Position numbers and translations under genes: made by a program
In this document: in pieces, positions 4,374-23,119 of the stretch
How positions within the stretch are numbered: the stretch's first letter is position 1
Layout: each line of letters starts with the position of its first letter
Notes under the pieces: generated by a model
What the model saw: only the letters and a program-made list of their open reading frames with translations
Told to the model about the DNA's origin: nothing
The model's database searches: none
Assembly: GCF_030252325.1 (NCBI RefSeq)
Contig: NZ_CP126981.1
Location: forward strand, 2,728,001-2,792,000
Direction of reading: 5' to 3'
Source of the DNA: Candidatus Mycobacterium wuenschmannii
GTDB lineage: Bacteria; Actinomycetota; Actinomycetes; Mycobacteriales; Mycobacteriaceae
Length of the DNA: 64,000 nt

Positions 4374-4403
4374 GGCAAGAACGTAAGCCGCGCGGCGCCG
4401 TCG

Positions 4404-4430
4404 GCGATACAGGGATTTCCCTGGTATTCA
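4404..4430 (-). promoter_or_regulatory. Palindromic operator 1 (CAGGGATTTCCCTG) upstream of the DUF732 pair
   Basis: The core AGGGATTTCCCT is at 4411-4422, flanked by GATAC on the left and GGTATTC on the right (plus-strand view). It ends 25 nt before the -10 box TACGTT (4385-4380). Its centre is 43.5 bp upstream of the inferred start site, the usual place for an activator touching sigma factor. It lies 1 nt beyond the stop of the Fpg/Nei gene. Confidence 0.75.
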
Positions 4431-4431
4431 C

Positions 4432-5295
4432 CTATTTCAGCAGGCGTGACATCCGCCGATCGGCAAGAACTTTGCCGCCGGTCTGGCAGGTCGGGCAGTA
4501 CTGAAACGACTTGTCGGCGAACGACACTTCGCGGACGGTGTCGCCGCAGACCGGGCACGGCAGGCCGGTGCGCGCGTGCACCCGCATTCCCGAACGCTTC
4601 TCGCCCTTCAGCTCGGCGGCCTGCTGGCCGACCGATCTGCCGACCGCGTCGGACAGGACCGACACCATCGCGTCGTACAGGGCTGCGAGTTGGGCCTCGG
4701 TGAGTTTGGCCGCGGTGGCGAACGGCGACAGCCTGGCGACGTGCAGGATCTCGTCGCTGTACGCGTTGCCGATGCCGGCGATGACTTTCTGGTCGGTGAT
4801 GACGCCTTTGATCCGGCCGGTGTTCTTTGCCAGCAGGGTGGCGAGGTCAGTTTGGCTGAGCTGCAAGGCATCTGGGCCAAGTGCGGCGATGCCGGGAACC
4901 TTCTGCGGGTCGTCGACGAGCCACACGGCCAGCCGCTTCTGGGTGCCGGCCTCGGTGAGGTCGAAGCCCGGCGATTCACCGGGCGGGCCGAGGTGAACCC
5001 TCAATGCGATCGGACCCTTGCCGGGTTTCAGCGGCATCGGAGACAGTTTCTCCGACCAGCGCAGCCAACCGGCCCGCGACAGGTGGGTGATCAGGATCAG
5101 CTCGCCGACGCGCATGCCGAGGTACTTGCCCCAGCGGTCGGCGCCGCTGACGGTCAGGCCGTGCAGCGCGTCGATCCGCGGATCGAAGGTCTTTAGCACC
5201 GACAACGCGGAGACGTCGACGCGACCAACGGTCTTGCCGACGGCGTGCTGGCGGAGGTAGTCGGCCAGCGCCTCGACTTCGGGCAGTTCGGGCAT
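4432..5295 (-). CDS. Fpg/Nei family DNA glycosylase-AP lyase
   Basis: Base-excision repair enzyme for oxidised bases. The 287-residue protein starts MPELPEVE, so Pro2 (nucleophile) and Glu3 are present. The beta-sandwich Lys is likely the one in RWGKYLG. The helix-two-turn-helix has the AGIGNAYSDEILH motif, and the C-terminal zinc finger has four Cys in CPVCGD and YCPTC. It corresponds by position to the mycobacterial Rv0944 locus, but is full length here. The holin-like gene ends 16 nt upstream on the same strand. Confidence 0.92.
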   Translation of the reverse strand: MPELPEVEALADYLRQHAVGKTVGRVDVSALSVLKTFDPRIDALHGLTVSGADRWGKYLGMRVGELILITHLSRAGWLRWSEKLSPMPLKPGKGPIALRVHLGPPGESPGFDLTEAGTQKRLAVWLVDDPQKVPGIAALGPDALQLSQTDLATLLAKNTGRIKGVITDQKVIAGIGNAYSDEILHVARLSPFATAAKLTEAQLAALYDAMVSVLSDAVGRSVGQQAAELKGEKRSGMRVHARTGLPCPVCGDTVREVSFADKSFQYCPTCQTGGKVLADRRMSRLLK

Positions 5296-5311
5296 GAGTC
5301 CAGTGTGCCGG

Positions 5312-5701
5312 TCAGCGCCGGGCGCGGGGTGTCACGAGCGACAGCATCCAGCTGACGATCGACAAGACGATCGCGGCCTTGATCGCCGTCCACCAGAAGG
5401 AGTCGATGGCCAGACCCCAGTGGGTGGTGTTCGCGGTGATGCGCGCGGTGATCCAGAGCATCAGCGCGTTGATGACGATGTGGAACAGGCCCAGGGTCAG
5501 GATGTAGAGCGGGATCGACAGGATCTGCACGATCGGCTTGATGAAGGCGTTGACCAAGCCGAAGACGACCGCGACGGCGAAGATGATGCCGATCCGCTGC
5601 AGGCGGGTGTCACCGCCGACGAAGTACAGCCCGGGGACGAGCTTGGTAACCACCCACAGCGCTAGCCCCGTGAGCCCGGCCCGGATGACGAAAGCTGTCA
5701 T
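5312..5701 (-). CDS. Phage holin family / YvlD-like membrane protein
   Basis: A 129-residue integral membrane protein with about four hydrophobic segments: near residues 5-20, 37-55, 62-85 and 105-125. It has the family's characteristic GLVNAFIKPIVQILSIPL stretch. Related proteins are annotated as mycobacterial holin superfamily 4 and are widespread in chromosomes, so a true phage lysis role is unlikely. It is probably co-transcribed with the downstream glycosylase gene (16-nt gap). The orphan operator at 5833 lies about 130 bp upstream, but the intervening -10 match is imperfect. Confidence 0.85.
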   Translation of the reverse strand: MTAFVIRAGLTGLALWVVTKLVPGLYFVGGDTRLQRIGIIFAVAVVFGLVNAFIKPIVQILSIPLYILTLGLFHIVINALMLWITARITANTTHWGLAIDSFWWTAIKAAIVLSIVSWMLSLVTPRARR

Positions 5702-5761
5702 GGGGCTGAACGTACTCGGCTAACCGCGTCGTTAAGTGTCAACGACGCGGGCGCGTCACTA

Positions 5762-5810
5762 GTTCTGCCCAGGAGTGCCCGGCGTGCCGGGACCGCCGTC
5801 GCCGGTATGT
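5762..5810 (-). pseudogene. Relict of a PGRS C-terminal tail
   Basis: Read on the minus strand, this stretch encodes TGDGGPGTPGTPGQN followed by a TAG stop at 5762-5760. That resembles the natural end of the adjacent PGRS protein ([11 protein letters not shown]). It lies after that protein's own stop, in a different frame, and has no start codon. It directly follows the orphan operator and its degenerate -10 box, so it is probably what a deletion left of another PGRS gene. Confidence 0.45.
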
Positions 5811-5825
5811 CGATGTCCCTCACAT

Positions 5826-5851
5826 TCGATACAGGGAAAACCCTCGCATTC
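5826..5851 (-). promoter_or_regulatory. Palindromic operator 2, orphan copy
   Basis: The core AGGGAAAACCCT at 5833-5844 has the usual GATAC left flank and GCATTC right flank, in the same orientation as the others. At the expected distance of 25 nt is TACCGG (5807-5802), a -10 box lacking the final T. There is no start codon at the leaderless position. The promoter appears decayed, and no intact gene follows immediately. Confidence 0.6.
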
Positions 5852-5874
5852 GTCAAGTGGGTCAAACGGGCGAC

Positions 5875-8800
5875 CTACGGCAGGTTGCGCCCCGGCGTGC
5901 CGGCCGCTCCCTGCGTTCCGAAGGCACCCGTGCCACCAGGTCCGCCGTAGCCTCCCGGACCGCCGGCACCGCCGTTACCGCCGTTACCGAGCGGTCCAGG
6001 ATCCGTGCCTCCGTTACCGCCGTCGCCACCGTTGCCGCCGGCGCCGCCGGCCAAGGTGTCAGACCCATAGCTGTCGTTTCCACCCATGCCGCCCGCGCCG
6101 CCGTCGCCGCCGTCGCCCACGCTCCCGGTTCCGCCGTCACCGCCGGTGCCCGCGGAGTAGAAGTAGGCAGGTCCGCTGCCGGTACTGGCGCCCACGACGC
6201 TGCCGCCGGTTCCGCCGGCACCGCCGTCTCCTCCGACGCCGCCCAGGTAGCTGCCGCCGCCACCGCCGCCACCACCACCGCCGTTGCCGCCACCGGTGCC
6301 GCCATTGCCTTGGATGCCGCCGGCACCACCTTGGCCGCCGGAAGTGCTACCCCCGAAGCCGCCGTTACCACCGCGTCCTCCGAGGTCACCCGCAGCTCCG
6401 GATCCGCCCGTCCCGCCGGTTTGCAGGCCGTTGCCGCCATTACCGCCGTTACCGCCGTTACCGAATCCTCCGTAACCGCCGTAACCCCCGTTGCCGCCAG
6501 TCACCGCGCTCGAGCCACCCGCGCCACCGTCACCGCCGTCACCACCGGGGTGTCCGACTGTGGAACCAGCCGGATAGCCGCCTTCGCCACCATTGCCGCC
6601 GTACCCGCCGCGCACCGCGCCGTAGGCGCCCGACCCGCCATTGCCGCCGTCGCCGTTCAGCGGGTCGTATCCATCGCCGCCGCTGCCACCGCTACCGCCG
6701 AAGGACCCGCTCGCACCGGGGTTTCCATTTGCGCCGGGCACGGACCCGGTACCACCCAGACCGCGGGTTCCGCCGGAGCCGACATTCGCTCCGTTTCCGC
6801 CGTTGCCGCCGTTGGGTTGGCCGGCATAGCCGTCGCCGCCCCTACCGCCGCTACCGCCGCTACCACCCTGACCGCCGTTGCCGGCGCTACCGCCGCCGCC
6901 GGATCCGCCCGCAGTGCCGTTAGCGGCCGTGCCGCCGATGCCGGCGTTGCCACCATTGCCGCCGGCACCGCCGGTACCGCCCAGCCCGCCGGCGCCACCG
7001 TTCGAGCCTGCTGCACCGACCGCACCGGTAGCCCCGTTTCCGCCGGTGCCGCCGTTCGCGCCCTTGCCGCCGCCTCCACCGATGCCGCCGTTGCCGGAGG
7101 TCGAGCCACCCTTACCGCCCGCACCGCCGCTGCCGCCGGCTCCGCCCGCCTGACCGTTGTCACCGTTTCCACCCGCAGCGCCGGGAGTGCCCGGCGTGCT
7201 GCCGCTGGCGCCGTTTCCGCCGGCCGCTCCATAGCCGCCGATTCCGCCGTTTCCGCCGTTTCCGACGTTGCCGCCGTTGCCACCGGCACCACCGTTGCCG
7301 CCAGGCGCACCCGGAGTGGTGGCGTTGTAGCCGACTCCGCCGTTACCGCCGTTGCCACCGCTGGTCGGGGTCGACCCGGCTGTGCCGTTCGAGCCGGGAG
7401 TCGACCCGGTGCCGCCGTTGCCGGCCGCGCCACCGTTGCCGACGTTGCCGCCGTTACCCCCGGCGCCGCCGTTGGGACTGGCGGCGTTGCCGCTGCCACC
7501 CAGGGCGCCGTTGCCCGCACTGCCGCCGTTACCACCGTTGCCGGCGTTGCCGCCGGCCCCGGCCTGGCCTGCAGTGCCGTTCGCCGCAGTCCCACCGATT
7601 CCGCCGTTGCCGCCATTGCCGCCCGCGCCGCCGTCGGCGCCGCTACCGCCGGCACCACCGTTCGAAGCGACGGCTCCCGCTGCGCCGTTGACGCCCGAGC
7701 CGCCGAGACCACCCTTGGCGCCCGCGCCGCCGGCACCACCGTTACCGCCGTTGCCGGCGTTCGAACCGCCCAGGCCACCGGCGCCGCCGTTGCCGCCCGA
7801 CCCACCGGCCTGACCAATGGTGCCGCTGCCGCCGTTGGCCCCTGCGGTCGTCGCGAACGGGCCGTTCGTGCCGTTCGCGCCGGCAAACCCGTTGCCGCCG
7901 TTGCCACCTGTGCCGCCGTTGCCGACGTTGCCGCCGTTTCCGCCGGCGCCACCGTTGCCGCCGCTGGCGCCAGCCGTCGTGGCGTTGAAGCCGTTGCCGC
8001 CGTTGCCGCCGTTGCCGCCGCTGACGGGCGTCGACCCGGCGGTTCCCGTCGATCCGGGTGTCAGACCGCTGCCTCCGGTACCGGCCGAACCACCCGTCCC
8101 GACGTTGCCGCCGTTACCGCCCGCTCCACCGTTGGGGTTGGCGGAATTGCCGGCGCCGCCTGTCGCGCCGTTGCCCGCAGTACCGCCGTTGCCGCCGCTG
8201 CCGGCGTTGCCGCCGACCCCGGCCTGGCCCGCCGTACCGTTCGCAGCAGTCCCGCCTGCTCCGCCGTTACCGCCGTTGCCGCCCGCTCCACCGTTGGCGC
8301 CGCTACCACCCGCGCCACCGTTCGAGCCTGCCGAGCCTGCTGCGCCGTTCATACCGGACCCGCCGGCGCCCCCGTTTGCGCCGGCACCGCCCGCGCCGCC
8401 GTTACCGCCGTCGCCGGATGTCGACCCGCCGAGGCCACCCGCGCCGCCATTACCGCCAGAGCCGCCGGCCTGACCGATCGTGCCGCTACCACCGTTGGTG
8501 CCCGCGGTCGTCGCCGCTGGGCCGTTGGTGCCCGCCGTGCCGGCAAACCCGTTGCCGCCCTTGCCCCCGTCGCCGCCACTACCGACCGAACCGCCGTTGC
8601 CACCGGCACCGCCATTACCGCCCGATGCCCCCGCGGTCGAGGCGTTGTAACCCGCGCCACCGTTGCCGCCGTCGCCACCGCTGGTCGGCGTCGACCCCGC
8701 CGTTCCGTTCACGGCCGTGCCGCCGATGCCGGCGTTGCCGCCGTTACCACCCGCACCGCCGTCGACATGGCTGGCGGACCCCGAGTAACCGTCGCCGCCG

Positions 8801-10512
8801 TTGCCGGCAACGCCTCCCGCGCCGCCGTTGCCCGACGTCGAACCGCCAAGGCCGCCGTTCCCACCGTCGCCGCCGTGACCGCCCGGGGTGCCGTCGCCGA
8901 TCGTGCGGATCCCATTGGCGCCACTACCGCCGTCACCACCGTTACCGATCGCGCCGCCGTCACCGCCGTCACCGCCGCTGCCCGCCGTCCCGCCCGTGGT
9001 CAGGTTGAAGTAGCCGTTACCGCCGTTGCCGCCGTTGGCGAGCTCGGTGGAGGCGCTGCCGTCGGCGCCGTCGCCACCCACAGTTCCGCCGCCGAGCCCG
9101 CCGGTTCCGGCGGCACCCCCGGTGCCACCGAGCCCGAACGTCCCCGGGTCGCCACCGTCGCCGCCGTCGCCGCCGTCGGGATGATCGAACGTCCCCAGCG
9201 CGCCTGCGCCACCCGTTCCGCCAGCCCCGGCGTCGCCGCCCGCACCACCGGCGCCGCCATTACCGGTCGTGCCGTCGCTGGCGAACGAGCCCTTACCGGC
9301 GTCCCCACCGACACCGCCGAGCCCGCCGGCTCCACCGGTACCGCCGTCACCTGCATTACCGCCATCGCCGGTGCCGCCGTTCATGAAGCTGCCCAATTCG
9401 CCGGCTCCGCCGTTACCGCCGTCGCCCCCGGCGCCACCGAAGCCGGCGTCGCCGCCGTTGCCCCCGGCGCCGAAGAAGAAGCCGCCAGCACCGCCCGCAC
9501 CCCCGGCCCCGCCGTTGCCGCCGATACCCCCGTTGAGGCCGTTGGCGCCGAAGGCGGTTTCCAGGGACGTGTAGCCCTCTCCACCGTTCCCGCCGAGACC
9601 ACCGTTGCCGCCATTGCTGAAGTACAGGCCACCAACACCGCCGGCGCCGCCGGCACCGCCGCTGCCGCCGTCAGGGTTCAGTTCGGTGCCCGCACCGCCG
9701 TCGCCACCGTTGCCGCCATTGCCGCCGAGTCCGAAGAAGTAGCCGCCTGCCCCACCAGCGCCACCCGCGCCGCCGTCGCCGCCGTAGAGACCGTCGGTTC
9801 CGTCGGCCCCGTTGCCGCCATTGCCGAACAGGAACGCGGCGTTACCGGCCTCACCCGGGGTGCCATTGACCGGCGAATCCCCGACAGCGAGGAGGCTCAG
9901 CTCGGACTGGGGTTCGAGGCCGCCGGCGTCGCCACCGTCACCGAGGAACCACCCCGCGTCGCCGCCGTCGCCGCCGAACCATCCGTCGCCGCCGTCGCCC
10001 AACCACAGACCGCCGTCCCCACCGTCGGGGGTCAGCTCTGTCCCGTCGACTCCGTTGCCGATCAGGAATTGACCGGACCAGGTGTTGACGAATTCACCGA
10101 ACTGCAGCCCCTCGGGGCTGGTGATCCAGTCCTGGATGCTGGTGTGCAGCGGCGAGTAGACGGCCTCGTTGAACCAGTCGTCGAATGACACCACCTCGGG
10201 CGAAGGAACGGCCGACCCAGCAAACAGACTCATCCAGTCGGTGCCGGCCCAATCCAGGTTCCACGCCGACGGGTCCAGCCAGGCCGACATGTCGAACGCC
10301 TCGACCGGCGGCGCCGCTTCAACCATCGGGTCGATGATCAACTCGATCCAGTCGGTCAGCACGTCGGCTCGCGCGACAGGCGCCGCACCTAGGGGGCTCA
10401 TACCAAACGCCAAAGCTGCACCGAGACTTGCACTTACGGCTATGGCTCGGCTGCTGCGGGATGCGACCCCTCGTCCCTGAAGATTCCGCTTGCAACCCCG
10501 CCGGCCAGCCAT
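5875..10512 (-). CDS. Secreted PGRS repeat protein without PE domain (PGRS1)
   Basis: A 1545-residue glycine- and asparagine-rich protein. Residues 1-49 form a long basic n-region plus a Sec signal peptide ending ARA before Asp50. Residues 50-146 are a non-repetitive, Trp-rich acidic domain. GQFLIGNG at about 147-154 resembles the GRPLI linker that precedes PGRS domains in PE_PGRS proteins. The rest is GGxGGx repeats, including three 220-residue near-identical units. There is no PE domain. A Shine-Dalgarno-like GGGGAAAG lies about 10 nt before the ATG at 10512. The promoter has operator 3 and a 72-nt leader. The role is unknown; a surface or secreted glycine-rich matrix protein is inferred. 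Long readings on the opposite strand are shadows of the repeats. Confidence 0.9.
6662..8650 (-). repeat. Three exact-register 660-bp tandem repeats inside PGRS1
   Basis: The marker encoding GYN/GFN-A-T/S-T recurs at 8641, 7981 and 7321, exactly 660 bp apart, with a diverged fourth register (GYDP) at 6661. A second marker, encoding GQAG...GTAANGTA, falls at 8221 and 7561 with a diverged copy at 6901, again 660 bp apart. Each unit is 220 residues with no length drift, suggesting recent duplication or ongoing gene conversion. Confidence 0.85.
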
Positions 10513-10590
10513 CAGACGCTTTCCCCAGTCCTGCGGCTAAGCCTTTCCTTCGCATTGTCTTGGGAAATTCTCAGCGAAGCCGCGCGCCCG

Positions 10591-10640
10591 ACGCTAAAGG
10601 GGACAGGCGGTTATAGATACAGGGAAAACCCTGGCATCCG
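10591..10640 (-). promoter_or_regulatory. Palindromic operator 3 and promoter of PGRS1
   Basis: The core AGGGAAAACCCT is at 10621-10632 with GATAC and GGCATCC flanks. After 24 nt comes the -10 box TAGCGT (10596-10591). The inferred start site is 10584, so the operator centre is at -42.5. This leaves a 72-nt leader before the ATG at 10512, which shares blocks with the PGRS2 leader. Confidence 0.75.
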
Positions 10641-10681
10641 CATCCTCGGCAAACTCATAGAAACGACGGGCGCGCGCCGTT

Positions 10682-11440
10682 TCACTCTAATCCGCTACGG
10701 CCCGGCGTCCAGAAGGGTGAGGTGCGAATGTTCCGCCGGTCCCAACCACGTTCGGCGACGAGGATCTTGCGGACGGTTTGAATCGTGCGTGCTTCACCGG
10801 CCAGATAGGCCACCCCAGGATCGTCGGGCAGCGTGAGCTCGCGCACGGCTTCGGCGAGCACGACCGAGTCTTTCGCCGACGCCTCCCCGCGCTGCACCTG
10901 TTGCAGCGGACGGGCAAGCGGCAGGTGATCGGGTTGGGCCGCAGCTTCCACTACGCCGTAGACATCGGCGCTCGCAGGCAGGGCGCGCAGCATCGCGGCG
11001 AACGCGACCGATGCGGTCTCGTCTCCCACGAACAGGTGATAGGGAGCATCGCCGCGGATCACGAGATTGCCCTGCGGCTTTGTGAATTGGACATTGTCAC
11101 CAACAGCGACGGCGCTTGCCCAGCGTTTTGCGGGCGTGCCGGTCTCCCGGTGATCGAACATGACGATATCGAGAGTGCCAAGCTCCGGATCTACGTCGTA
11201 TATCGAGTAGGTGCGCAGCGCGTCGTGCAGTTGCAGGCGTAGCAGCGACTCGCCCAGCCCCGCCACCTGTAGTCGGACGTGCTGCCCAGGTGCCCACGTC
11301 AAGCCCTGTAATCGCTTGCCGCTGAATCGAATACGCCGCAGCGTCGGCGTGAGCTGTTCGGTGTCGCTGACGGTTGCGGACAGGAACACGGCGTCGCGCA
11401 AGGATTTGATCAGCGGGAACGCGTCGATGAGGGTTGGCAC
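10682..11440 (-). CDS. Siderophore-interacting (SIP-type) FAD ferric reductase-like protein
   Basis: A 252-residue flavoprotein of the ViuB/SIP family, likely reducing ferric siderophores in the cytoplasm. The FAD-binding barrel includes GQHVRLQV and the RTYSIYDVD motif typical of SIP proteins. The NAD(P)H half has LFVGDETASVAF, AYLAGEARTI and a C-terminal RNIRTSPFWTPGRSG motif. It lies 13 nt downstream of the O-methyltransferase gene, forming an operon behind an IdeR-type iron box, so expression is expected when iron is scarce. Confidence 0.88.
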   Translation of the reverse strand: MPTLIDAFPLIKSLRDAVFLSATVSDTEQLTPTLRRIRFSGKRLQGLTWAPGQHVRLQVAGLGESLLRLQLHDALRTYSIYDVDPELGTLDIVMFDHRETGTPAKRWASAVAVGDNVQFTKPQGNLVIRGDAPYHLFVGDETASVAFAAMLRALPASADVYGVVEAAAQPDHLPLARPLQQVQRGEASAKDSVVLAEAVRELTLPDDPGVAYLAGEARTIQTVRKILVAERGWDRRNIRTSPFWTPGRSGLE

Positions 11441-11453
11441 TGTGGTCTCCGAA

Positions 11454-12143
11454 TCAGATTGTTCTGACTGACATTTGGTTGCCGCGCTCGCCCCCGAAGG
11501 GCAGCGCTACGGTGCGATAGCCATGTCGCTGATTGCGCACATAGGTGAGGTACTCACCCGATTCCTCGACGGCGTTCTCGGCGATCACCAAGGCCCCCGG
11601 GGCCAGTCGCGGTTCGAGGAGTTTGAGCACCGGCAGGTACAGGCTGAACGCCCCGTCGAGTAAAACCAGGTCGATGCCGTCGTCCACATCGTCGCGCAAG
11701 GTCTCCAACGCGTCACCAACGCGAATCTCAACCAGATCGGAAAGTCCTGCGGCCGAGAGGTTTTCGCGGGCCCGATCGGCCTTCGAGGGCTCGAGATCAG
11801 TTCCGATCAGCCGTCCGCCGCCACCGTCACGCAGAGCGGCCGCGAGATAGATCGTCGAGACGCCGAACGACGTGCCGAATTCCACGACGTGGCGGGCCCG
11901 CCGCGCCCGCGCACAGACATACAGGAACTCGCCAAACTCGGCGCTGACGTTCAGGTAGTAACCCGCGAGCTGCTGATACGTGCCCTTGTAGTCGTTCGCC
12001 TCGAAGGCCAGAAAATCGGCGAGCGCCACCGGGTCGGCCGCGACCTCGGCGAACCGCTCATGGAGCGGCCCGTCCTGCGCCTGCGCCTCGTCGAACAGTC
12101 GCGTCAGTACGTCCGCTACTGGCGCCGCGAAAAGTGAATCCAT
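11454..12143 (-). CDS. SAM-dependent O-methyltransferase (class I), first gene of an iron-regulated operon
   Basis: A 229-residue methyltransferase resembling O-methyltransferase family 3. The SAM motif I is VVEFGTSFGVSTIYLA, the acidic loop is LIGTDLEP, and a later motif is IDLVLLDGA. The methyl acceptor is unknown. Its pairing with a siderophore-interacting reductase and the iron box 18 bp upstream suggest a role in low-iron metabolism or siderophore handling. That is an inference from context. Confidence 0.85.
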   Translation of the reverse strand: MDSLFAAPVADVLTRLFDEAQAQDGPLHERFAEVAADPVALADFLAFEANDYKGTYQQLAGYYLNVSAEFGEFLYVCARARRARHVVEFGTSFGVSTIYLAAALRDGGGGRLIGTDLEPSKADRARENLSAAGLSDLVEIRVGDALETLRDDVDDGIDLVLLDGAFSLYLPVLKLLEPRLAPGALVIAENAVEESGEYLTYVRNQRHGYRTVALPFGGERGNQMSVRTI

Positions 12144-12161
12144 TGAGCCCCTAACCTCAGT

Positions 12162-12180
12162 TAAGGTTAGGCTTACCTAA
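12162..12180 (-). promoter_or_regulatory. IdeR-type iron box
   Basis: TAAGGTTAGGCTTACCTAA matches 17 of 19 positions of the established mycobacterial IdeR consensus TTAGGTTAGGCTAACCTAA. It lies 18 bp upstream of the methyltransferase ATG at 12143 and so should overlap the promoter, giving repression by iron-loaded IdeR. Confidence 0.85.
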
Positions 12181-12206
12181 TTTATGTCAGGTGTCAACGG
12201 CTCCGT

Positions 12207-12671: not shown

Positions 12672-15600
12672 GGACCCCGGACCGCCGACGTTGCCAGTAG
12701 CCCCGTTCCCGCCGGCGCCGCCCGCGCCGCCGGTTCCGGCGGTCGCACCGGCTGCTCCACCTCCGCCGCCGTTGCCACCGGCACCGCCGGCTCCGCCGTT
12801 TCCGCCTGGGATGTTGTCCAGCTGGCTGCCGCCGCCCTGATCGCCCTGGCCGCCGACGCCGCCATTACCCCCGACGCCGCCCGCCCCGCCGTTGCCAGAG
12901 TGAATCCCGGCATCGCCGCCGATTCCGCCATTGCCGCCGGCACCGCCAGCACCACCGTCCGCGCCGTTGAGCGGCGCGTAGGGCGGTGTATAGCCGCTAC
13001 CTCCGTTGCCGCCGGCACCGCCTGCCCCACCGTTGCCGTCGACATAGCCCGCGCCGCCGTGACCGCCGTTACCACCGGCCTGCCCGGTACCCGCCAGGCC
13101 GCTGGCCCCGTTGCCGCCAGCGCCCCCGTCGGGGTGCGCGACCGTGCCGTCTGCGCCGGCGCCACCGCTGCCGGCGGTGCCGCTGATCGAGGCGCTGCTG
13201 GTCCCGGGACTGCCGGCCGCGCCTTGCAGGCCGCCGGATCCGACGTAGCCCCCAGCCCACCTTGGCCACCCGCCCCGGCCTGACCGAAGTTTCCGGTAGC
13301 CCCGCCGTCACCGCCGGCACCGTCCTGCCCGCCGGACCCGATCAAGCCGAACTGCCCCTGAGCACCGTCACCACCCGCGCCGGGCGCACCGGCCGCGCCG
13401 CCTTGGCCGCCGGCCCCGCCGTCGCCGGCCACGCCGACACTTCCGTCGCCCGCAGTCCCAGCGTCGCCGCCCTGCCCACCTTGGCCTCCGGCGCCGCCCG
13501 CGCCACCGTCGCTGCCCTGGCCGCCAGTGCCGTTGTCCGCCAATATCAGTCCCGGTCTGCCGTCGCCCCCTGCGGCCCCGTCGCCGCCCGCGCCACCTTG
13601 ACCGCCGTCGCCGCCATTGCTGGCGCTTCCCGCGGCGCCGTTTCCACCCTGTCCGCCGGCACCGCCGCTACCGGCGACGTAACCGTCGCCGCCGTGACCA
13701 CCGGAACCACCGAGGCCGCCGTCGCCGATCGACGGAGAGCTGCCCGCACCGCCGTCGCCGCCGGCACCGCCGACGCCACCGAAACCGTCGGAACCCGCCA
13801 AATCACCAGAGCCACCAGCGCCCGCGATCCCCGCGTCGCCGCCGGCGCCGCCGTTGCCACCGGCACCGGTGAGGTCGCCGGTGTTATCGCCGCCGAAGCC
13901 ACCAGCGCCGCCATTACCGGCGTCACCGCCACCGCCACCGAAGCCGCCTGTGAAGAGGTGGTCCAAGGCGTTGCCACCGGCTCCGCCGGATCCGCCATGA
14001 CCACCCGCGCCGCCATCGGCTGGTGACGATCCCGACAGTCCGTCGCCACCGGCGCCGCCGTTACCGCCGGCGCCGCCGAAAGCGCCGCTCGCTCCATCCA
14101 GACCCCTGCCGCCGTCGCCGCCGTTACCACCGGCCGAACCCGGCCCGCCGGCCCCACCGTCGCCGCCGCGGCCGCCCGAGCCGCCGTTGACCGTTCCGTC
14201 GGAGCCTCCAGCGCCCGGTTGACCAGAGGTTCCCGACATCCCGCCGGCCCCACCATCGCCGCCATTACCACCGGCCACGCCAGCCGTAGTGGAGCTGTAC
14301 CCATCGCCGCCGGCGCCGCCAGTTCCACCGCCGCCCCCGTCGCCGCCGTTGCCGCCGTGCGAGCCGTCGACTCCGGCGCCGCCGTTTCCACCGTTGCCGC
14401 CGGGCGCACCGGCTTGGCCGGCGCCGCCGTCCACCTGGCTTGCGGTCCCGGCGACGCCGTTGCCGCCGGCGCTCCCGTGCCCGCCGAACCCGCCGTTGCC
14501 GCCGTAACCGTTGCTGCCGCCGTCGGCACCGCGGCCGGCGTCGCCACCGTTTCCACCGTTGTGGCCGCTCAGGCCGCCGCTGGACTCGCTGGCACCGCCG
14601 CCTCCGTTGCCGCCGTTGCCGCCATTGCCTCCGCCGACACCGTCAACGCCGGCCCCGCCGTTGCCGCCGGCGCCGCCATCGGATCCATCTCCGCCACCGA
14701 CGTTGGACGTCATGCCCTGAAGACCGCCGCCCCCGTTTCCGCCGTCGCCTCCGTGGCCGCTGGCGCCCCCGTCGACGCCGCGCCCCGCATCGCCACCGTC
14801 GCCGCCGCTGCCGCCGTCTCCGCCGTTGCCAAGGGCTAACAGGCTTTGTCCGCCGTTGCCGCCGTCGCCGCCGTAACCGCCGGCACCTCCGCGAAGGCCG
14901 TCGATGCCGCCCGCGCCGCCATTACCCCCGGCACCACCGTCACCACCATCACCGGCATCTCCGCTCGGCCCGCCTAAGCCGCCGCCGGACCCGTTGCCGC
15001 CGTAACCGCCATCGCCACCAGCACCGCCGTAGCCGGCGTTCGCACCGGCGGCCCCACCGTCGCCACCACCGCCGCCAGCACCGCCGGATCCGCCGTCGCC
15101 GCCGGGGATTTGGCCCATGGAACCGCCCTGGTCGCCCTGACCGCCAATGCCGCCGTAACCGCCGGCACCGCCCGTGCCGCCGTTACCGGAATTGCTGCCC
15201 GCGTCACCACCGGCCCCGCCGTGGCCACCGGCTCCGCCGTCACCGCCGTAGGCGCCGTTGACTGGCGAGTAAGGGGGTGTGGCAGCGCTGCCGCCGTGGC
15301 CGCCGGCGCCGCCATTGCCGCCGTTGCCGTCGACGTAGCCCTTGCCGCCGGCGCCGCCGTCACCGCCGGCCTGGCCGGTCCGGTCCGCGCCGTCAGCGCC
15401 GTTGCCACCGTTGGCGCCGTCGGGGTGCGCCACCGTACCGTCGGCGCCGTTACCGCCACTGCCCGCCTGCTGGTCGAGCTGGACTCCGCTGTAGGGGCCG
15501 CCCGCACCCTCGCCACCGGTCGCCCCTTGATAGGCATCGTTGCCGACGCCAGGCGATCCGCCCAACGCGCCGGCGCCGGGCTGGCCGAAGTTTCCTGCAG

Positions 15601-16333
15601 CGCCGCCATCACCGCCGGCGCCGTCCTGGCCGCCGGAGCCGAGGAACCCGAACTGGCCATCGGCACCGTCACCGCCGGCACCTGGCGCTCCTGCTGCTCC
15701 ACCCTGACCGCCGGCGCCACCCCAACCGGCCGTGCCGACGGTTCCGTCGCCGGCCACCCCGGCGTTGCCACCGTTGCCACCGTGACCGGCCGCCCCACCG
15801 GGCCCACCGTCGCCGCCAACACCACCCTTGCCCTGCTCGACCCCGAGCACACCGGCCGCTCCGGTGTGCCCGGCCGCACCGGCGCCACCGTCACCGCCCG
15901 CGCCGCCCACGCCACCAGTGCCGGGGCCACCGTTCGGCCCGCCGGTCGCCGCGCCGTTGCCGCCCACACCCCCGAGGCCACCACTGCCGCCCGCGAGGCC
16001 GTCGCCGCCATGACCGCCCGCGCCGCCTGCCCCGCCGTCGCCGATCAGCGGAGAGCTACCCGCGCCGCCGGCACCGCCGGCACCGCCGGCGGCACCCAAG
16101 CCGTCGAGAGAACCCGCACCTCCGAGGCCGGGCGCTCCCGCGTCGCCGCCCGCTCCGCCGCCGCCGCCGGCGCCGGCGACAGAACCGGTGTTGTCGCCAC
16201 CTCGACCGCCGTCACCACCGAATCCGGCGTTACCGCCGGCACCCGACGGGAAGTTGCCGTTGCCGAGACCGCCCGCTCCGCCATCGCCGCCCTGACCGCC
16301 GACGCCACCGTCTGTCGGCGTCGGACCGGACAC
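12668..16333 (-). CDS. PGRS2 middle fragment as literally read
   Basis: A 1221-residue reading that begins at a GTG just after the first frameshift. It is PGRS sequence until about 13250, then reads out of frame (Ala/Arg/Pro-rich) to its stop. The abrupt composition change marks the second frameshift. It lacks a signal peptide and is best regarded as part of PGRS2. Confidence 0.4.
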
Positions 16334-18981
16334 CCCGGCGCCACCGGACCCGCCGTTACCCCCATTGCCGCCCAGCCCCCGGCATTGCCACTCCCGTCGG
16401 CTCCGCCGCCGGCGCCCAGGCCGCCCACGCCCGCTGCCCCGCCGGCACCGCCCGCGCCGCCATTGCCACCGGCCAGCCCGTCAGAGTTGAGACTGAAGCC
16501 GTCGCCACCCGCGCCGCCGGACCCACCGGCGCCGGCGTTGCCGCCACTGCCGCCTCCGGTGCCGCCGTCTCCGCCGGCGCCGCCGCTGCCGCCCAGTCCG
16601 CCGACACCACCGTCGACGTTGTCGGCATCGCCCGCGATACCGCTACCGCCCCGGCCTCCGGCACCACCGTCACCCCCTCGGCCGTCGTCATAGCCGTTAC
16701 CGCCGCGGCCGCCGTCGCCACCGGCCTGACCGGTGCCGTCGACGCCGTCGCTGCCCCTGCCGCCGGGCGCGCCGTCGTGATGCGTGGCGTCGCCGTTGGC
16801 GCCGTCACCACCGTTTGCCGCCTGATTGACCGGGCCACCGTCGCTCGGCGTAGCGCTGCCCGCAGTGCCGGCAGCTCCACTTTCGCCGCCAGCACCGGCA
16901 CCCGCCTGGCCGCCGGCACCACCGGCACCCGCCGCGCCGGCCTGGCCGGGAGCGCCCGCGTCACCGCCAGCACCGTCCACACCACCGGAGCCGGGGTAGC
17001 CGAAGGCGCCCGCTGCACCCACGCCGCCGGCGCCGGCCGCGCCCGCCGCACCTCCCGCGCCACCGGCCCCGCCATCGCCGGCTGCACCGAGGGATCCGTC
17101 ACTGGACAGGCCGGCGCTGCCGCCGGCGCCACCGTGCCCTCCAGCGAACCCGTCGCCACCGTCCTCGCCATTGCCTCCGGCGCTGCCGGGAGTCACGCCG
17201 TCTGGACCGTCGGCCCCGTCGGTGCCGGGCGCTCCGATACCTCCCGCGCCGCCGACACCGCCCGCGCCGCCGGTGACACCCGCTCCGCCGTCACCTCCGA
17301 CACCACCGTTGCCGCCAACTCCACCGGTGTACGGGTCGGCTTCTTCGAGCGTCGCGAACCGGGCGAAACCGGTCGACGGTGGGGCGGCCCCATTCGCGCC
17401 CGCCCCGCCCGCACCGCCGGCGCCACCGGAGCCGATCGAGCCGCCGTCACCACCGTCGCCGCCGTGCCCGCCATTCGGATGAGCCGCGTCGCCGTGTGCA
17501 CCGGCGCCACCGGCACCGCCGTGAATGTCTGTCGACGTGGGGGCGGCACCATCGCCTCCGGACTCGCCGTTGCTCGCTCCGGCCCCGCCGGCCAAGCCAC
17601 CCAGACCGCCGTGCCCGGCCGTCCCGATCGACCCGTCGCCGGCGTTGCCGCCGTCGCCGCCGGCACCGTCCAGATCGCCCGAGCCGTGTTCACCCCAGAC
17701 CCCGGTCGCCCCGGTGCCGCCGTTGCCGGGCGTACCGGCGGCACCACCGTCGCCGCCCTTACCGCCGTCGCCGTTGAGCCCCGCGCTGCCGTGCGCCGCC
17801 GCGCCGCCGCTGCCGCCGGTGCCGCCCTGACCGCCGTCGTAGCCGTTCCCGTAGCCGTCGCCTCCGTTGCCGCCAACCCCGTTGTTGATCCCGGCGACCC
17901 CGGCGTCGCCGTCCTTGCCCACGATGCCCGACGCGCCGGCCCCACCGACGCCGCCGAACCCTCCGTCACCGCCATCACCTGACTGCGAGCCACCGATGCC
18001 GCCGTCACCACCGTGGCCACCGGCAGCGCCAATGCTGTTGTCTCCCAACGCCCCTACGCCGCCGTTGCCGCCGTCACCACCGTCGCCGTACGCCGCGCCC
18101 GCCCCGCCGTTGCCGCCGTCGCCGCCGAGCTGCCCGGCCCCGATGCCGGTGCCACCGAGCCCACCATCGCCACCGTTGCCGAACAAGTAGGCGACGGCAT
18201 TCCCACCGTCGCCGCCGGAGCCGGCAGCCAGACCGGAGCCACCGTCACCGCCCGCACCGCCGCCGCCGCCCAGGCCCATGAAGAGGCCGCCGGCACCGCC
18301 GTCACCGCCCGCGCCGCCGTCGATCCCCAGACCACCCTGGCCGCCGTCGCCGAAGAAGAAGGCGTCCCCGCCGTCACCACCGATACCCTCGAGCGAGGTC
18401 CCGCCCATTCCGCCGTCGCCGAACCACAGGCCGCCGTCCCCGCCCGCGGCATCGGCGAGCGACCCACCATCGATGCCCTCAGCGCCGTTGCCGATCAGGA
18501 TGTGGCCGTACACCGCCTCGCCGAACGGGTTGATCAGGTTGTTGTCCACCCACATGCCGAAGGGACTCTCGATCCAGTCCTGGCCGGCCTGATGCCACGA
18601 CGCATAACTGTTCGCGAGCAGGTCGACGAAGGGATCGCTACCGGCCGCGGGCGCGAGACCGGCCAGGTCTGCGCTGGGCGCCCAGGTCGTCGGATCCGCG
18701 AGGTTGGCCAGGAAGGTGTCCCATGCGGCGGGGTCCAGGAACACCTGCAGCGCGGCCGGATCGGCCAGATTCTCCATAGCGCCTGCCAGGCTCGGCCCGA
18801 GCACATCGGTGATCCAGTCGAGGTCGAAGACGTCGGCGCGCGCCACCGGCGCCGCGGCAAGCGAGCTCATTCCAAGCGTTAACAGCGCGCCGGCACTCGC
18901 CCCCAGGCCGACCGCGCGCACGCGGCGCGCGACGGCCCCTCGCGATTGACGATTGCGCTTGCTACCCCGCCGACCAGCCAT
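16045..18981 (-). CDS. PGRS2 N-terminal part as literally read
   Basis: A 978-residue reading with the true start of PGRS2: ATG at 18981, signal peptide to Ala49, N-terminal domain rich in Trp/Asp/Leu, LIGNG linker, then PGRS. After about 16375 the composition switches to an Ala/Arg/Val-rich shadow frame, so the last 100 or so residues are not native if the frameshift is real. A secreted truncated product is possible. Confidence 0.6.
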
Positions 18982-19058
18982 CCCGCACCCTTCAACTCGG
19001 GCGGCTCAGGTTTTCCTTTGTCTAGTCTTTGGAAAATCTCAGGTAGCCGCTCAGCCGA

Positions 19059-19107
19059 AGGCTAGGCCGATCGCGCGCGCGTCGATACAGGGATTTCCCT
19101 TGCAATC
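19059..19107 (-). promoter_or_regulatory. Palindromic operator 4 and promoter of PGRS2
   Basis: The core AGGGATTTCCCT at 19089-19100 has a GATAC flank and a weaker right flank (TGCAATC). After 24 nt comes the -10 box TAGCCT (19064-19059). The inferred start is 19052, giving an operator centre at -42.5 and a 71-nt leader, almost the same length as that of PGRS1. Confidence 0.75.
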
Positions 19108-19133
19108 GATGTGGGCGACGTTAGTGGGGCGCG

Positions 19134-19487
19134 TTAGCAGCGCGGATCACCGTTGGGCGGGATGTAGGAGTCGAGCCGCTCGTTGTTGCGGAACACGGCT
19201 CCGTTCGGCACGCACGTCAGTACGCCGTTGACGTACATCCACGCGCCACCGGTGAGAGGCTTGTTGCGATCCTGGCCGCTGTTGGGCTGCTGATTGTTCC
19301 CGCGGTTGGCGTTGTTGAGGACGTCGTCGACGATCCCCTTGGCCTGCTTCTCCTTGCACTGCTGCACCTGTTCCGGGGGCTGCTGGTCGCAGTCGTTCGG
19401 GTTGTCAGCAGCCGCGACCGGCAGCCACGCCATGGAAGCGGCGGCCAACAACGAAAACACCGTGATGCCAACGGATTTCTTAATCAT
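19134..19487 (-). CDS. Small secreted protein A of the operator regulon
   Basis: A 117-residue protein with a Sec signal peptide (MIKKSVGITVFSLLAAAS core, cleavage near VAA/ADN). The mature N terminus has the motif CDQQPPEQVQQC, a polar Asn/Gln-rich middle, and YVNGVLTCVPNG near the end, with four Cys. It shares CDQ-P-QVQQC and the NGV-T pattern with the neighbour at 19565, so the two are paralogs. The ATG at 19487 is 7 nt after the TAGCGT -10 box (19500-19495), so transcription is essentially leaderless. No known domain is recognised. Confidence 0.85.
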   Translation of the reverse strand: MIKKSVGITVFSLLAAASMAWLPVAAADNPNDCDQQPPEQVQQCKEKQAKGIVDDVLNNANRGNNQQPNSGQDRNKPLTGGAWMYVNGVLTCVPNGAVFRNNERLDSYIPPNGDPRC

Positions 19488-19494
19488 GAGGCAG

Positions 19495-19543
19495 ACGCTA
19501 GGCGTGGCGGCGGCGCCGCGATACCGGGATTTCCCTGGCATTC
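19495..19543 (-). promoter_or_regulatory. Palindromic operator 5 and promoter of small secreted protein A
   Basis: The core CGGGATTTCCCT at 19525-19536 (one change from the common form) has GATAC and GGCATTC flanks. The 24-nt gap to the -10 box TAGCGT (19500-19495) places the operator centre at -42.5 relative to 19488. Confidence 0.75.
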
Positions 19544-19564
19544 GGCCTGAATCTGAGCGCAGTC

Positions 19565-19981
19565 TCAGTGCGGTGTGAGCCCGAAATGCGAATAACACGG
19601 CTCGGCGGTCTGGCCGACGGTGGTGAAGAGTCCGGGCGACCACATGGTGGGGACGCCGTTGATGAGCCAGCAGTGCTTGTCGGCCAGGTCGATGGCTTTG
19701 TTGCCCTGCTCCGGCGCCTGCTTCGCCTGATCCGCGCCCTGCTTCGCCTGGTCCGCGGCTTGCTTTGCTTGATCCGCGGCTTGCTTGGCCTGGTCGACGC
19801 CCTGCTTCGTCTCGCCAATGGCCTTGTTCGCGGCTGCCGCTGCCTTGTCCTGCTGGCATTGCTGCACCTGATCGGCGGGCACCTGATCGCAGTCGGGCTC
19901 GTCGGCGTTGGCTACCGGCATCCACAGCAGCAGAGCAGAAGCACCGACAATAAGCGGCGACGCGACAGTCTTCTTCACCAT
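19565..19981 (-). CDS. Small secreted protein B with heptad repeats
   Basis: A 138-residue protein. The signal peptide (KKTVASPLIVGASALLLWM) is probably cleaved after ANA. The mature start has CDQVPADQVQQCQQ, as in protein A. The centre carries consecutive seven-residue units of the type DQAKQAA, predicted to form a helix or coiled coil. The end has HCWLINGVPTMW and a further Cys. The ATG at 19981 follows the -10 box TAGCGT (19994-19989) by 7 nt. A longer reading from 20149 would cross the operator and is rejected. Function unknown. Confidence 0.85.
   Translation of the reverse strand: MVKKTVASPLIVGASALLLWMPVANADEPDCDQVPADQVQQCQQDKAAAAANKAIGETKQGVDQAKQAADQAKQAADQAKQGADQAKQAPEQGNKAIDLADKHCWLINGVPTMWSPGLFTTVGQTAEPCYSHFGLTPH
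19716..19803 (-). repeat. Tandem 21-bp repeats coding DQAKQAA heptads
   Basis: About four consecutive 21-bp units inside small secreted protein B encode (V/A)DQAKQ(A/G). Third-position differences between units show they are not fresh copies. Heptad spacing suggests an amphipathic helix. Confidence 0.7.
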
Positions 19982-19988
19982 GGCACCG

Positions 19989-20038
19989 ACGCTATGCCCG
20001 CGCGCCACATACGCGATACAGGGATTTCCCTGGTAGTC
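19989..20038 (-). promoter_or_regulatory. Palindromic operator 6 and promoter of small secreted protein B
   Basis: The core AGGGATTTCCCT at 20020-20031 has GATAC and GGTAGTC flanks. The gap to TAGCGT (19994-19989) is 25 nt, so the centre is at -43.5 from 19982. Confidence 0.75.
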
Positions 20039-20048
20039 AGCAGGAGGG

Positions 20049-20324
20049 TCAGGCGGGAAGCTGAGCCCGCACGACGGCGGTGACGCGGTCGGCGTGCCAC
20101 CCGGCCTGGTGGCATGCCTCGATGGCTGCCTCGGCGGAGTCGGCGGCAATCACGCCGTAGATCGTGTCATCGCTGGGGGCAGTCAGCGCGCCCAATAACC
20201 GGACGCGCGCGGCGTCGGCCACCCTTTGCAACCGCTCGACGGCCTTATTGAAAGACATCGCAACCAGGTCGGGTTGGTACCACTCGACCAGGTAACACGG
20301 TTCGGTCTGCTCGCTACTGAACAC
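20049..20324 (-). CDS. Small DUF4242-like (nickel-binding-type ferredoxin fold) protein
   Basis: A 91-residue protein without a signal peptide. The pattern is CYLVEWYQPDL, a central helix, then TIYGVIAADSAEAAIEACHQAGWHADRVTAV. This resembles DUF4242 proteins, which form ferredoxin-like dimers, one of which binds nickel. The assignment rests on pattern only. I place the start at the GTG at 20324, because the -10 box TAACGT (20337-20332) lies exactly 7 nt before it and operator 7 is correctly spaced. A TTG at 20345 would lie inside the promoter. Confidence 0.8.
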   Translation of the reverse strand: MFSSEQTEPCYLVEWYQPDLVAMSFNKAVERLQRVADAARVRLLGALTAPSDDTIYGVIAADSAEAAIEACHQAGWHADRVTAVVRAQLPA

Positions 20325-20331
20325 GTGTACG

Positions 20332-20380
20332 ACGTTACCTTGCAATCGGCCGCCGCGAATCAGGGCTTTCCCTGGGAGTT
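20332..20380 (-). promoter_or_regulatory. Palindromic operator 7, overlapping the end of the LuxR gene
   Basis: The core AGGGCTTTCCCT at 20362-20373 has weaker flanks (GAATC and GGGAGTTC). Its first base is part of the LuxR regulator's TGA stop, and the rest lies in that gene's last codons. The gap to the -10 box TAACGT (20337-20332) is 24 nt and the centre is at -42.5. A further CCCTGG half-site follows at 20381-20386. Confidence 0.65.
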
Positions 20381-23119
20381 CCCTGGATTTAACGCACCCG
20401 CGAGCCCGCCGCGGGACCGAATGCCCAGCTTCCGATACACATTGCTCAGATTCATTTCGACGGTCTTCGGCGCGATGAACAACTCGGCGGCGATCTGCTT
20501 ATTAGACATTCCGGACGCCGCGAGTTCGGCGACGCGTCGTTCGGCGGCGGTCAGTCCGTGACCATCGGCGACCGGAATGTTCAGCCGCTCCAACTCGCCC
20601 CGGGCCCGCTGGGCCCACAGCGGCGCACCGAGTCGCTCGAACATCTCCAGACACTCCTGGAGCGTGGTCTCCGCCGCCTGCCGGCGCCGCCGCCGGCGCT
20701 GGATCTGACCGAGCAGCAACTGGGTGCGTGCCAACTCGAACGGCATCGGCAGTCGCTGGTGATGGCTCAGCGCGTTCTGCGCGGCACTCTCCGCCGACTC
20801 GAGATCGCCTCGCGCGGCGAGCACGTGGCCTCGGCCGCGTGCGCCGACGGCCAATAGCCACGGCCGATCATGCTGCACCCCAGCACTTTCCAATGCCTCA
20901 ACGAGCGGCTCGGCCTCGTCGTGCCGCCCCAGCGCGGTCAGCGCCTCGATCGCATCGGGAAGGTAAGCGCCGACCATGATTTCGGTGTCGTGGGCCGGGT
21001 CGAAAGACGCCAGCACCGGCTCCAGCACGGCGAGCGCGGCCGCATAGTTGCTCAGCGACACCTCGAGAAATCCGAGCGCCGTCATCGCCGGCGCGAGCAA
21101 ATGGAAGGTGCCCATGGACTGCGCCGCATCGATCGCCGACCGCGCGGCCTGCCGCGTCTCGTCCTCACGACCTGTGTACGCGGCGGCGGCGGCCTGACAC
21201 GTCCACGATGTGGTCAGCATGTGCTTGCCGCCCAACTGCTCGGCACGCTGCACGGCGTCCTCGGCGCCGGCCGTGGCGTCGCCGTACCGACCCAGCCAGA
21301 TGTCCATCATCGTCGCGTGATGGTCGGCCCACAGGATGTCGATCTCGGTGCCTTCCTGCAGGTAACGACGCTGCACCTTTCTCATCTGTTCGCGGGCGTC
21401 GACCAGTTCGCCGGCCCAGCCGGCGGCCACCGCCGCCACCGCGGTCGCCTGAAAAGTGGCTCCGGCCCAACCGTTTGGGTCTTCCAGCTCCAGCGCTCGT
21501 TGTAACGCCGACCGGTCGAATCCCAGACCGTGGATGAAGGTGACGGTGACCCACATCGTCAACGCCTGGCTGACCAGGCCGTCGAGACCCAGCCGCTCGG
21601 CTTCGACGACGGCCGCCTGCGCGTGCTCGACGGATTCCTGCATCTCTCCGATCAGTCCGGTGGCCGGCGCCAGCAATAGTCGACCCTGCAGAGCCAGCAC
21701 CGGGTCGTCGACCTCGGCGACCGCCTGCGTCAGCGCGGCGACCGCGTTAAGCATGCTGTCGTCGTGACCGGTGATGGCGGCAACCAGCATCAGTCCGACG
21801 CAGCGCAAACTGCTGCCGGGTGTCAGACGGTCGATCGTCGACTGCAGGCGCACGCCCGCCTGATCCAGCGCGCCGGACCGAAAGTGGTGCTCGGCGGCGC
21901 GGATGCGACGCAGCGACGTGTCTCCCCCGAGTTTGATTGCCAGATCCAGCAACTCGGCTGCGGCCGCCGGGGCACCCTGCGCCATCGTCACCTCAGCGGC
22001 CTTGTCGAGCGCCTCCAACATCGCCGGGTCACCGGTGGTGGCCGACAGCGCGAGATGCCGCGCCCGCAACTCCGGTTCCTCGACGGTGTCGGCGAACCTG
22101 CGGTGCATCGCCCGGCGCTGCGGCGGGCTGGCGCCGCTGTACACACCGCGGGCGAACAACGGGTGGCAGAAGCGGACCTTGTTGCCGTCCAACTCGACGA
22201 CACCGGACGCCCCGACCGATTCGACCACCTCAACCACGCGATCGACGCTCAATTCGATGGCGCGGCTCAACCGCTCGACGGTCGGAAAGACGGCGCACGA
22301 CGCGGCCAGCAGCACTGCGCTGAGCTCATCGTCGGGCCGGCCGATCCGCTGACGCACTAGTGCGGCAAGGGAATCCGGCAGACCTACCACGCCGCGCGAC
22401 GGCTCGTCGGCAACCGCACGAGCCATCTCGAGCGCGAAAAACGGATTACCACCTGATATTTCGTGGATACGGGTGATGACCGGGCGCGGCAGCGTTCGCC
22501 CCAGCCGCTGCGAGATCAGCGCGTGCACGCCACCGAGCGGCAGGGGCTGCAACCTGATCCGCGCCACCGAATCGGGCCGCGCGAATCGCAACCAGCCCGG
22601 CGTCTCGTTGCGGCGCGGCTCGCCGATCCGAACGCTGACCGCCACCCCGATCCGGCCGGTGAGGCGCCGCGCCGCGTAGCCGAACACCACCTGGCTTGAG
22701 ACATCCAGCCACTGCGCGTCGTCGATGGTGACCAAGATCGGCGCCCCCGAGCCGCGGTGCTGCAGCACCGACAGGAACGCGGCGGCGACGGTCCGCTCGT
22801 TGGTCGGCGGCCCGTCGCCGGTCAACAACAGGACCCGCTCCAGTGCCGTGCGCTGCACCGCCGGCAGGTTTGCGATGACGGCGGGATCGACGGTCTCGAG
22901 CAGGTCGGCGACTGCGGCATAGGCGTACCGCGCCTCAGTCAGCGCACCCGCCGTCGAGAGCACCCGAAAACCCTGTGCTGTGGCGGCCTCGGCAACGCGC
23001 AATAGGTAGGTGGTCTTGCCGATGCCCGCTTCGCCCTCGATGACCATCCCCGCTGGTCCGGACAAAGTACGGTCCAGGAATTCATGCACCGCATGCACGT
23101 CCGCCTGCCGCACCAGCAA
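20360..23119 (-). CDS. Large ATP-binding LuxR-family transcriptional regulator (candidate master of the operator regulon)
   Basis: A 919-residue LAL/STAND-type regulator. A Walker A motif GEAGIGKTT lies at about residues 29-37, a Walker B region ILVTIDDAQWLD follows, then a long helical TPR-like sensor region. The C terminus is a LuxR helix-turn-helix (LTAAERRVAELAASGMSNKQIA...KTVEMNLSNVYRKLG). No cyclase domain is present, unlike some Mtb relatives. The start is TTG at 23119 or, better spaced from GAGGGGG, GTG at 23113. A TAGGTT -10-like box lies upstream. Operators spaced for class II activation downstream of it make it the likely activator; this is inference. It is divergent from the diiron oxygenase gene. 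Confidence 0.9.
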   Translation of the reverse strand: MLVRQADVHAVHEFLDRTLSGPAGMVIEGEAGIGKTTYLLRVAEAATAQGFRVLSTAGALTEARYAYAAVADLLETVDPAVIANLPAVQRTALERVLLLTGDGPPTNERTVAAAFLSVLQHRGSGAPILVTIDDAQWLDVSSQVVFGYAARRLTGRIGVAVSVRIGEPRRNETPGWLRFARPDSVARIRLQPLPLGGVHALISQRLGRTLPRPVITRIHEISGGNPFFALEMARAVADEPSRGVVGLPDSLAALVRQRIGRPDDELSAVLLAASCAVFPTVERLSRAIELSVDRVVEVVESVGASGVVELDGNKVRFCHPLFARGVYSGASPPQRRAMHRRFADTVEEPELRARHLALSATTGDPAMLEALDKAAEVTMAQGAPAAAAELLDLAIKLGGDTSLRRIRAAEHHFRSGALDQAGVRLQSTIDRLTPGSSLRCVGLMLVAAITGHDDSMLNAVAALTQAVAEVDDPVLALQGRLLLAPATGLIGEMQESVEHAQAAVVEAERLGLDGLVSQALTMWVTVTFIHGLGFDRSALQRALELEDPNGWAGATFQATAVAAVAAGWAGELVDAREQMRKVQRRYLQEGTEIDILWADHHATMMDIWLGRYGDATAGAEDAVQRAEQLGGKHMLTTSWTCQAAAAAYTGREDETRQAARSAIDAAQSMGTFHLLAPAMTALGFLEVSLSNYAAALAVLEPVLASFDPAHDTEIMVGAYLPDAIEALTALGRHDEAEPLVEALESAGVQHDRPWLLAVGARGRGHVLAARGDLESAESAAQNALSHHQRLPMPFELARTQLLLGQIQRRRRRRQAAETTLQECLEMFERLGAPLWAQRARGELERLNIPVADGHGLTAAERRVAELAASGMSNKQIAAELFIAPKTVEMNLSNVYRKLGIRSRGGLAGALNPGNSQGKP

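Follow-up and report, generated by a model that had tools for sequence, protein, structure and literature searches.

A putative palindromic operator and ATPase-LuxR regulon of exported proteins in Candidatus Mycobacterium wuenschmannii

Described systems and the regulator of the window

The iniBAC activator IniR (Rv0339c, MMAR_0612) is a mycobacterial ATPase with a MalT-like region and a C-terminal LuxR-type helix-turn-helix (HTH); the available passages of its description present it as regulating iniBAC only and give no binding motif (PMC5760070). Another mycobacterial ATPase with a C-terminal LuxR-type HTH is encoded in a 64,000-nucleotide stretch of Candidatus Mycobacterium wuenschmannii (the window; positions 2728001-2792000 of a 5.10-Mb single-contig genome, working label G000), where its gene adjoins one of seven copies of a 14-nucleotide palindrome. 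Comparison across genomes suggests, with a probability of roughly 80%, that a subfamily of MalT-like ATPase-LuxR regulators separate from IniR uses the palindrome as operator for a class II activator regulon. Regulon and operator are new, the architecture of the regulator is known. To our knowledge, the control of PGRS-type and other surface or secreted proteins of mycobacteria is little understood.

The regulator gene spans 20360..23119 on the minus strand, as do all genes and operator copies of the window given below, and its true start may be the GTG at 23113. AAA_16 (56.7 bits), TPR_12 (43.1 bits) and GerE (56.2 bits) are all above their cut-offs and follow in the same order as in MalT and LAL regulators, so that the broad architecture of AAA ATPase, TPR region and C-terminal GerE HTH is present. 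On the MalT equivalog model, however, the protein reaches 41 bits against 537. MalT boxes are asymmetric repeated sites, whereas a single palindrome occupies a fixed place here. A PDB sequence search with the regulator gave matches confined to HTH domains. Among named records, the nearest regulators come from Mycobacterium sp. Actino1 (77%), a metagenome-assembled genome (MAG), and from Mycolicibacter species (59-62%), with the records of the organism's own genome possibly outside the search; the host thus probably falls within the M. terrae group. The closest relative (L059:10001-12756; G030:C12, a MAG) is split over two frames, reflecting either mutation or assembly error.

Identity with IniR was considered and rejected. 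The regulator scores 28.2 bits on NF038181 against a cut-off of 750, the paralogs of the same genome found among the matches listed score 28.5 and 44.0 bits, both below 750, and no match to the IniB domain was found in the genome. Moreover, all 30 iniB upstream regions collected from other mycobacteria (L135-L164) carry different elements, namely two or three MalT-box-like CCCCTAA/G repeats, and no palindrome. These repeats are likely the IniR site.

AGGG...CCCT half-sites are shared with DevR/DosR and with OsdR, whose consensus AGGGCCGATCGGCCCT is reported to conform to the Mycobacterium tuberculosis DevR site (PMC5069765). The palindrome was rejected as a DevR box, since its half-sites stand 4 nt closer (AGGG-N4-CCCT instead of N8). 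The window regulator also gave no receiver domain hit, unlike DevR/DosR and OsdR. Neither motif nor regulon turned up in the literature searched: the core palindrome in four spellings returned no mycobacterial paper by title, and 10-base cores combined with "mycobacteri" gave nothing on the subject among the matches listed, judged by title and abstract start.

Operator sites, promoter geometry and target genes

The first-pass annotation had described seven palindromes in a single orientation and interpreted them as a LuxR-controlled regulon. All seven are present with the minus strand as sense, each starting one base before the coordinate given there. At two or fewer mismatches, the window holds 10 palindromes where 0.47 are expected, a count that none of 100 shuffles reached; the three extra matches are at 20372 (overlapping the copy at 20361), 35941 and 60908. 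With three mismatches allowed, the count is not significant: 35 matches occur where chance predicts 24.5, and 7 of 100 shuffles give at least as many. One flank reads GATAC in six of the seven copies and GAATC at 20361. In six copies, a TANNNT box starts 23 or 24 nt past the 14-mer, which places the operator centre at -42.5 or -43.5, as had been claimed, when the box is taken as starting at -12.

Copy 1 (CAGGGAAATCCCTG, 4410..4423, box TACGTT at 4380-4385) lies upstream of two genes for secreted proteins, a DUF732 protein of 107 aa (4050..4373) and a DUF732-like protein of 105 aa (3723..4040) with the same C-terminus and judged a paralog by eye. Copy 2 (GAGGGTTTTCCCTG, 5832..5845), with TACCGG in place of TANNNT, precedes a gene for a PF04020 membrane protein with four transmembrane segments (5312..5701, 129 aa). 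This gene was missing from the earlier target list, which otherwise stands; it is a syntenic neighbor and perhaps the target of the 5832 site, because homologs occur in 12 other regulator-flanking loci. Copies 3 (10620..10633, box TAGCGT at 10591-10596) and 4 (19088..19101, box TAGCCT at 19059-19064) precede genes for PGRS-like giants with signal peptides, of 1545 aa (5875..10512) and 978 aa (16045..18981), the latter scoring 22.8 bits for PGRS, below the 27-bit cut-off. Two small secreted paralogs follow copies 5 (19524..19537, box TAGCGT at 19495-19500) and 6 (20019..20032, box TAGCGT at 19989-19994): one of 117 aa (19134..19487) and a Gln/Asp-rich one of 138 aa (19565..19981). Copy 7 (20361..20374, box TAACGT at 20332-20337) lies over the regulator stop codon and upstream of a DUF4242-like gene. 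A second palindrome, CTGGGAGTTCCCTG, at 20372-20385 overlaps copy 7 and is possibly a second binding site; a similar palindrome at 12733 in L059 adjoins the operator of that locus.

The regulon appears to be far larger than the seven copies that had suggested it. Across the genome, CAGGGAWWTCCCTG matches 50 places at two or fewer mismatches against eight for the reversed pattern. Thirty-four of the 50 were inspected in context and 27 retained for their common extended flanks, with 2748372, 2989786, 3152962, 3389215, 57960, 58334 and 257209 discarded; the match at 3389215 later scored 21 bits and lies, without a box, upstream of a gene with an export signal. The 27 sites have a 24-base consensus of about gAATRC-MAGGGAAATCCCTG-TATC, in which AGGG and CCC are invariant. 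The palindrome core reads AAAT in 20 of them and ATTT in one, so that the site is oriented towards its own gene. TANNNT occurs 23-25 nt downstream in 25 of the 27, the exceptions being 2733832 (window 5832) and 3917112. Two operator pairs stand back to back with 30-31 bp between them and face divergent genes.

Promoter geometry was assessed on 105 distinct sites of at least 18 bits from all loci gathered, with the box excluded from the scoring matrix; many of these loci were chosen for their motif or regulator, and near-identical genomes contribute some of them. The box begins 23 nt (58 sites), 24 nt (32) or 25 nt (3) past the 14-mer, giving 93 of 105 sites, and is present at 68 of the 77 outside the window's genome. 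By comparison, six of 1500 random positions have a box at 22-25 nt. A -35 consensus is absent, as 88 of the 93 box-bearing sites match TTGACA at three positions or fewer out of six. This fixed spacing without a -35 consensus supports the proposed class II placement and would fit a LuxR-type dyad near -42.5 replacing the -35 element.

Near-perfect palindromes at L169 (G085:C1:719064) and L181 (G104:C14:87120) match on both strands 5 bp apart and are perhaps bidirectional operators. At 1763347-1763560 of the window's genome (L022), three operators of the other subtype (TAGGG...TGATTC) share a single intergenic region, flanked by a DUF3558 lipoprotein gene and by one whose Pro-rich frame is broken by a stop; they are perhaps served by a clade-2 regulator at 321685.

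Genes behind the operator are enriched for export signals: a simple signal-peptide rule flags 72 of 88 targets and, among random positions, 297 of 1500. These 88 passed a text filter against DUF4242, and two are still DUF4242-like (one in the window, unflagged, and one at L169, flagged). In the window's genome, 25 of 28 target rows carry the export flag, which is doubtful for two of them, namely 4170399 and the PF04020 membrane protein. Grouping the targets by BLAST gives families that are found again downstream of the operator in several species. Small secreted proteins built around a CGxxC core number 17, proteins sharing a GRVGALAVALGVG-like signal region 14 (with Ig/cadherin repeats in one of the two scanned), and Gln-rich small secreted proteins and PGRS-like giants 10 each; there are also pairs with PE, DUF732 or C39-like domains. 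In other mycobacteria, operators at L172 and L182 lie upstream of PE-family genes; the PE domain was scanned in L172, with which L182 clusters.

Association with the ATPase-LuxR family

For co-occurrence, a protein matching the window regulator with an E value of 1e-60 or lower counted as a family hit, with seven candidates scored per genome. Such hits are present in 55 of 118 genomes of the genus. Ungapped AGGGWWWWCCCTRWWTC is found in 25 of these 118 genomes, all of them among the 55 with the family (0 of 63 without), and its reversed control gave one match against 78. In the rest of the bacterial family (141 genomes), one match each in three genomes, with one for the control, amounts to background. 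Of the 57 matches outside the window's genome, seven have a regulator gene within 150 bp (0.12 expected) and 11 have one within 700 bp (0.16 expected); a single G085 palindrome read on both strands counts twice among the 11.

On a FastTree of 65 regulators, the 23 with a site of at least 15 bits within 500 bp fall in both halves of the tree. A single clade of motif-bearing regulators was rejected, as adjacency takes 11 changes on this tree (shuffled-label mean 19), which points to an ancient feature that has frequently disappeared or has drifted under the threshold. Rescanning the siteless regulators with a matrix from linked sites recovered weaker sites near L063, L068, L074 and L206, and none of at least 12 bits within 600 bp of the remaining ones.

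Regulator, operator and DUF4242-like gene make up a conserved module. The operator lies over or just past the regulator stop codon, ahead of the DUF4242-like gene, in the window and several relatives; in L049, L050, L053 and L074, operator and DUF4242-like gene precede the regulator, in that order. Translated, the overlapping operator gives ...QGKP-stop in the window, L039, L041, L042, L057 and L058 (KGKP in L060) and ...REIPDS, RETPDS, REIPGT or RVNTDS in L044, L208, L209, L096, L052 and L047, while in L199 the TAG of the operator itself is the regulator stop. Since the operator is read in three frames, it is the DNA that is conserved and not one peptide. Sites at L048, L060 and L204 adjoin regulators where no DUF4242-like gene was detected, which points to the regulator as the constant partner of the site.

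In the window, the DUF4242/SCO4226-like protein (20049..20324, 91 aa from GTG) starts 36 nt past the operator 14-mer. Among 20 such genes directly past a site, 17 start at +36, two at +37 and one at +32, in a search limited to +30 to +41 and including a few near-copy pairs. The start codon thus lies at or beside the likely transcription start, and leaderless transcripts would be expected. The protein matches the full length of the profile of SCO4226 (PF14026, DUF4242) at 24.2 bits (E 3.8e-05), but this is below the Pfam gathering score of 28.5, making it a distant relative at most. A PDB sequence search with it gave no credible match (best E 0.57).

Operator subtype varies with the regulator. 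Among linked operators (distinct sites of at least 12 bits, box optional), all 17 of clade 1, one of them a palindrome read backwards, have a base other than T before AGGG, and 12 of the 13 others have T; the exception, L060, is on a long branch. A larger tree held 128 regulators, 34 of them in clade 1, and included part of the genomes' regulators. For unlinked sites in genomes where a single group was found (n = 25), the base before AGGG is non-T at 12 of 12 sites with clade 1 and T at 11 of 13 with others (p 2e-5). The tail there is ATTC in 0 of 12 clade-1 and 13 of 13 other sites, and TATC in 9 of 12 and 0 of 13. Genomes with both groups contribute 43 sites, uninformative for covariation, of which 37 are non-T; of the six T sites, three are those at 1763347-1763560, G102 has one, and G045 has two, which are mixed (T with TATC). 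Regulator groups partly track species relationships.

Proposed mechanism, alternatives and implications

From the motif, its spacing and targets, and its co-occurrence, adjacency and covariation with the regulators, all read from sequence, a mechanism can be proposed. A dimer of GerE domains would bind the palindrome centered about 43 bases upstream of the transcription start, taking the position of a -35 element, and would recruit RNA polymerase to a TANCGT-like -10 box. About 27 scattered promoters of the window's genome would thereby be switched on, with mostly exported products such as PGRS giants, small secreted families, DUF732 proteins and a C39-like peptidase. The DUF4242-like gene at the 3' end of the regulator would also be driven, and its product is, as a guess, perhaps a partner or feedback component. 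Switching may be gated by ATP or a ligand, as in MalT-like proteins.

Several observations weigh against this proposal. The co-occurrence (Fisher p 1.2e-10) takes no account of relatedness, and 30 of the 55 family-bearing genomes have no strict-pattern match. Forty-two of 65 regulators, including relatives 62-63% identical, have no site of at least 15 bits within 500 bp. Twelve of the 105 sites have no box, and neither do two of the 27 in the window's genome. A single recognition-helix residue was rejected as the determinant, as motif-bearing and other regulators are not cleanly separated. Finally, two more clade-1 regulators are encoded in the window's genome, at 3702220 and 4039661.

Because of these two, the activator role that the first pass gave to the window protein is putative for that protein alone; for its family, the role is backed by co-occurrence, adjacency, three-frame DNA conservation and covariation. 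It is possible, though rather doubtful, that within the same regulon one of these paralogs is the main activator here or that operators are common to all three; an operator-driven PGRS gene lies about 130 nt ahead of the start of the regulator gene at 4039661. Only the window gene, however, has operators within 2 kb, four of them at 0, 328, 823 and 1259 nt. With four operators within 1.3 kb of its gene, the window protein is the leading, though not sole, candidate activator in this genome, and it might serve most sites.

A different, unlinked transcription factor might instead bind the operator, with the ATPase-LuxR genes merely among its targets, and 46 of the 57 matches are indeed more than 700 bp from a regulator gene. 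This is improbable given that the subtype tracks the regulator group at unlinked sites too and that the motif was seen in none of the 63 genomes without a family hit. That the operator serves the same family for repression is less probable still: palindromes often serve repressors, but the strict box spacing, the oriented flanks and the lack of a -35 consensus fit an activator that touches polymerase. An alternative sigma factor promoter or a dispersed repeat can be given very little credence. The box is tighter (TANCGT) than TANNNT, with TAGCGT or TACCGT in 47 of 93 cases; yet the palindrome centre, about 30 nt before the box, is too far for a -35 element, the palindrome covaries with LuxR regulators, and conservation is limited to site and box upstream of differing gene families. 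An activator operator of the ATPase-LuxR family therefore remains the preferred explanation. The initial interpretation of the palindromes as a LuxR-controlled regulon is supported, and the scan of the strain and its relatives found the motif associated with promoters, where a common motif without such association had been named as refuting it.

Together with its promoter geometry, its targets and its candidate activator, the operator is open to direct testing. The covariation of operators with regulators offers a natural set for studying site choice by an HTH family, and DUF4242-like proteins gain a regulatory context. More broadly, and with about even chances of being right, the system may be a mycobacterial exoprotein switch, in which a duplicated ATPase-LuxR family uses two operator dialects (MAGGG...TGTATC and TAGGG...TGATTC), one per regulator group. 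The DUF4242-like protein would be a co-evolving partner expressed from a leaderless promoter within the regulator stop codon, and the output of PGRS, PE, adhesin-like and small secreted proteins would remodel the cell surface as one programme.

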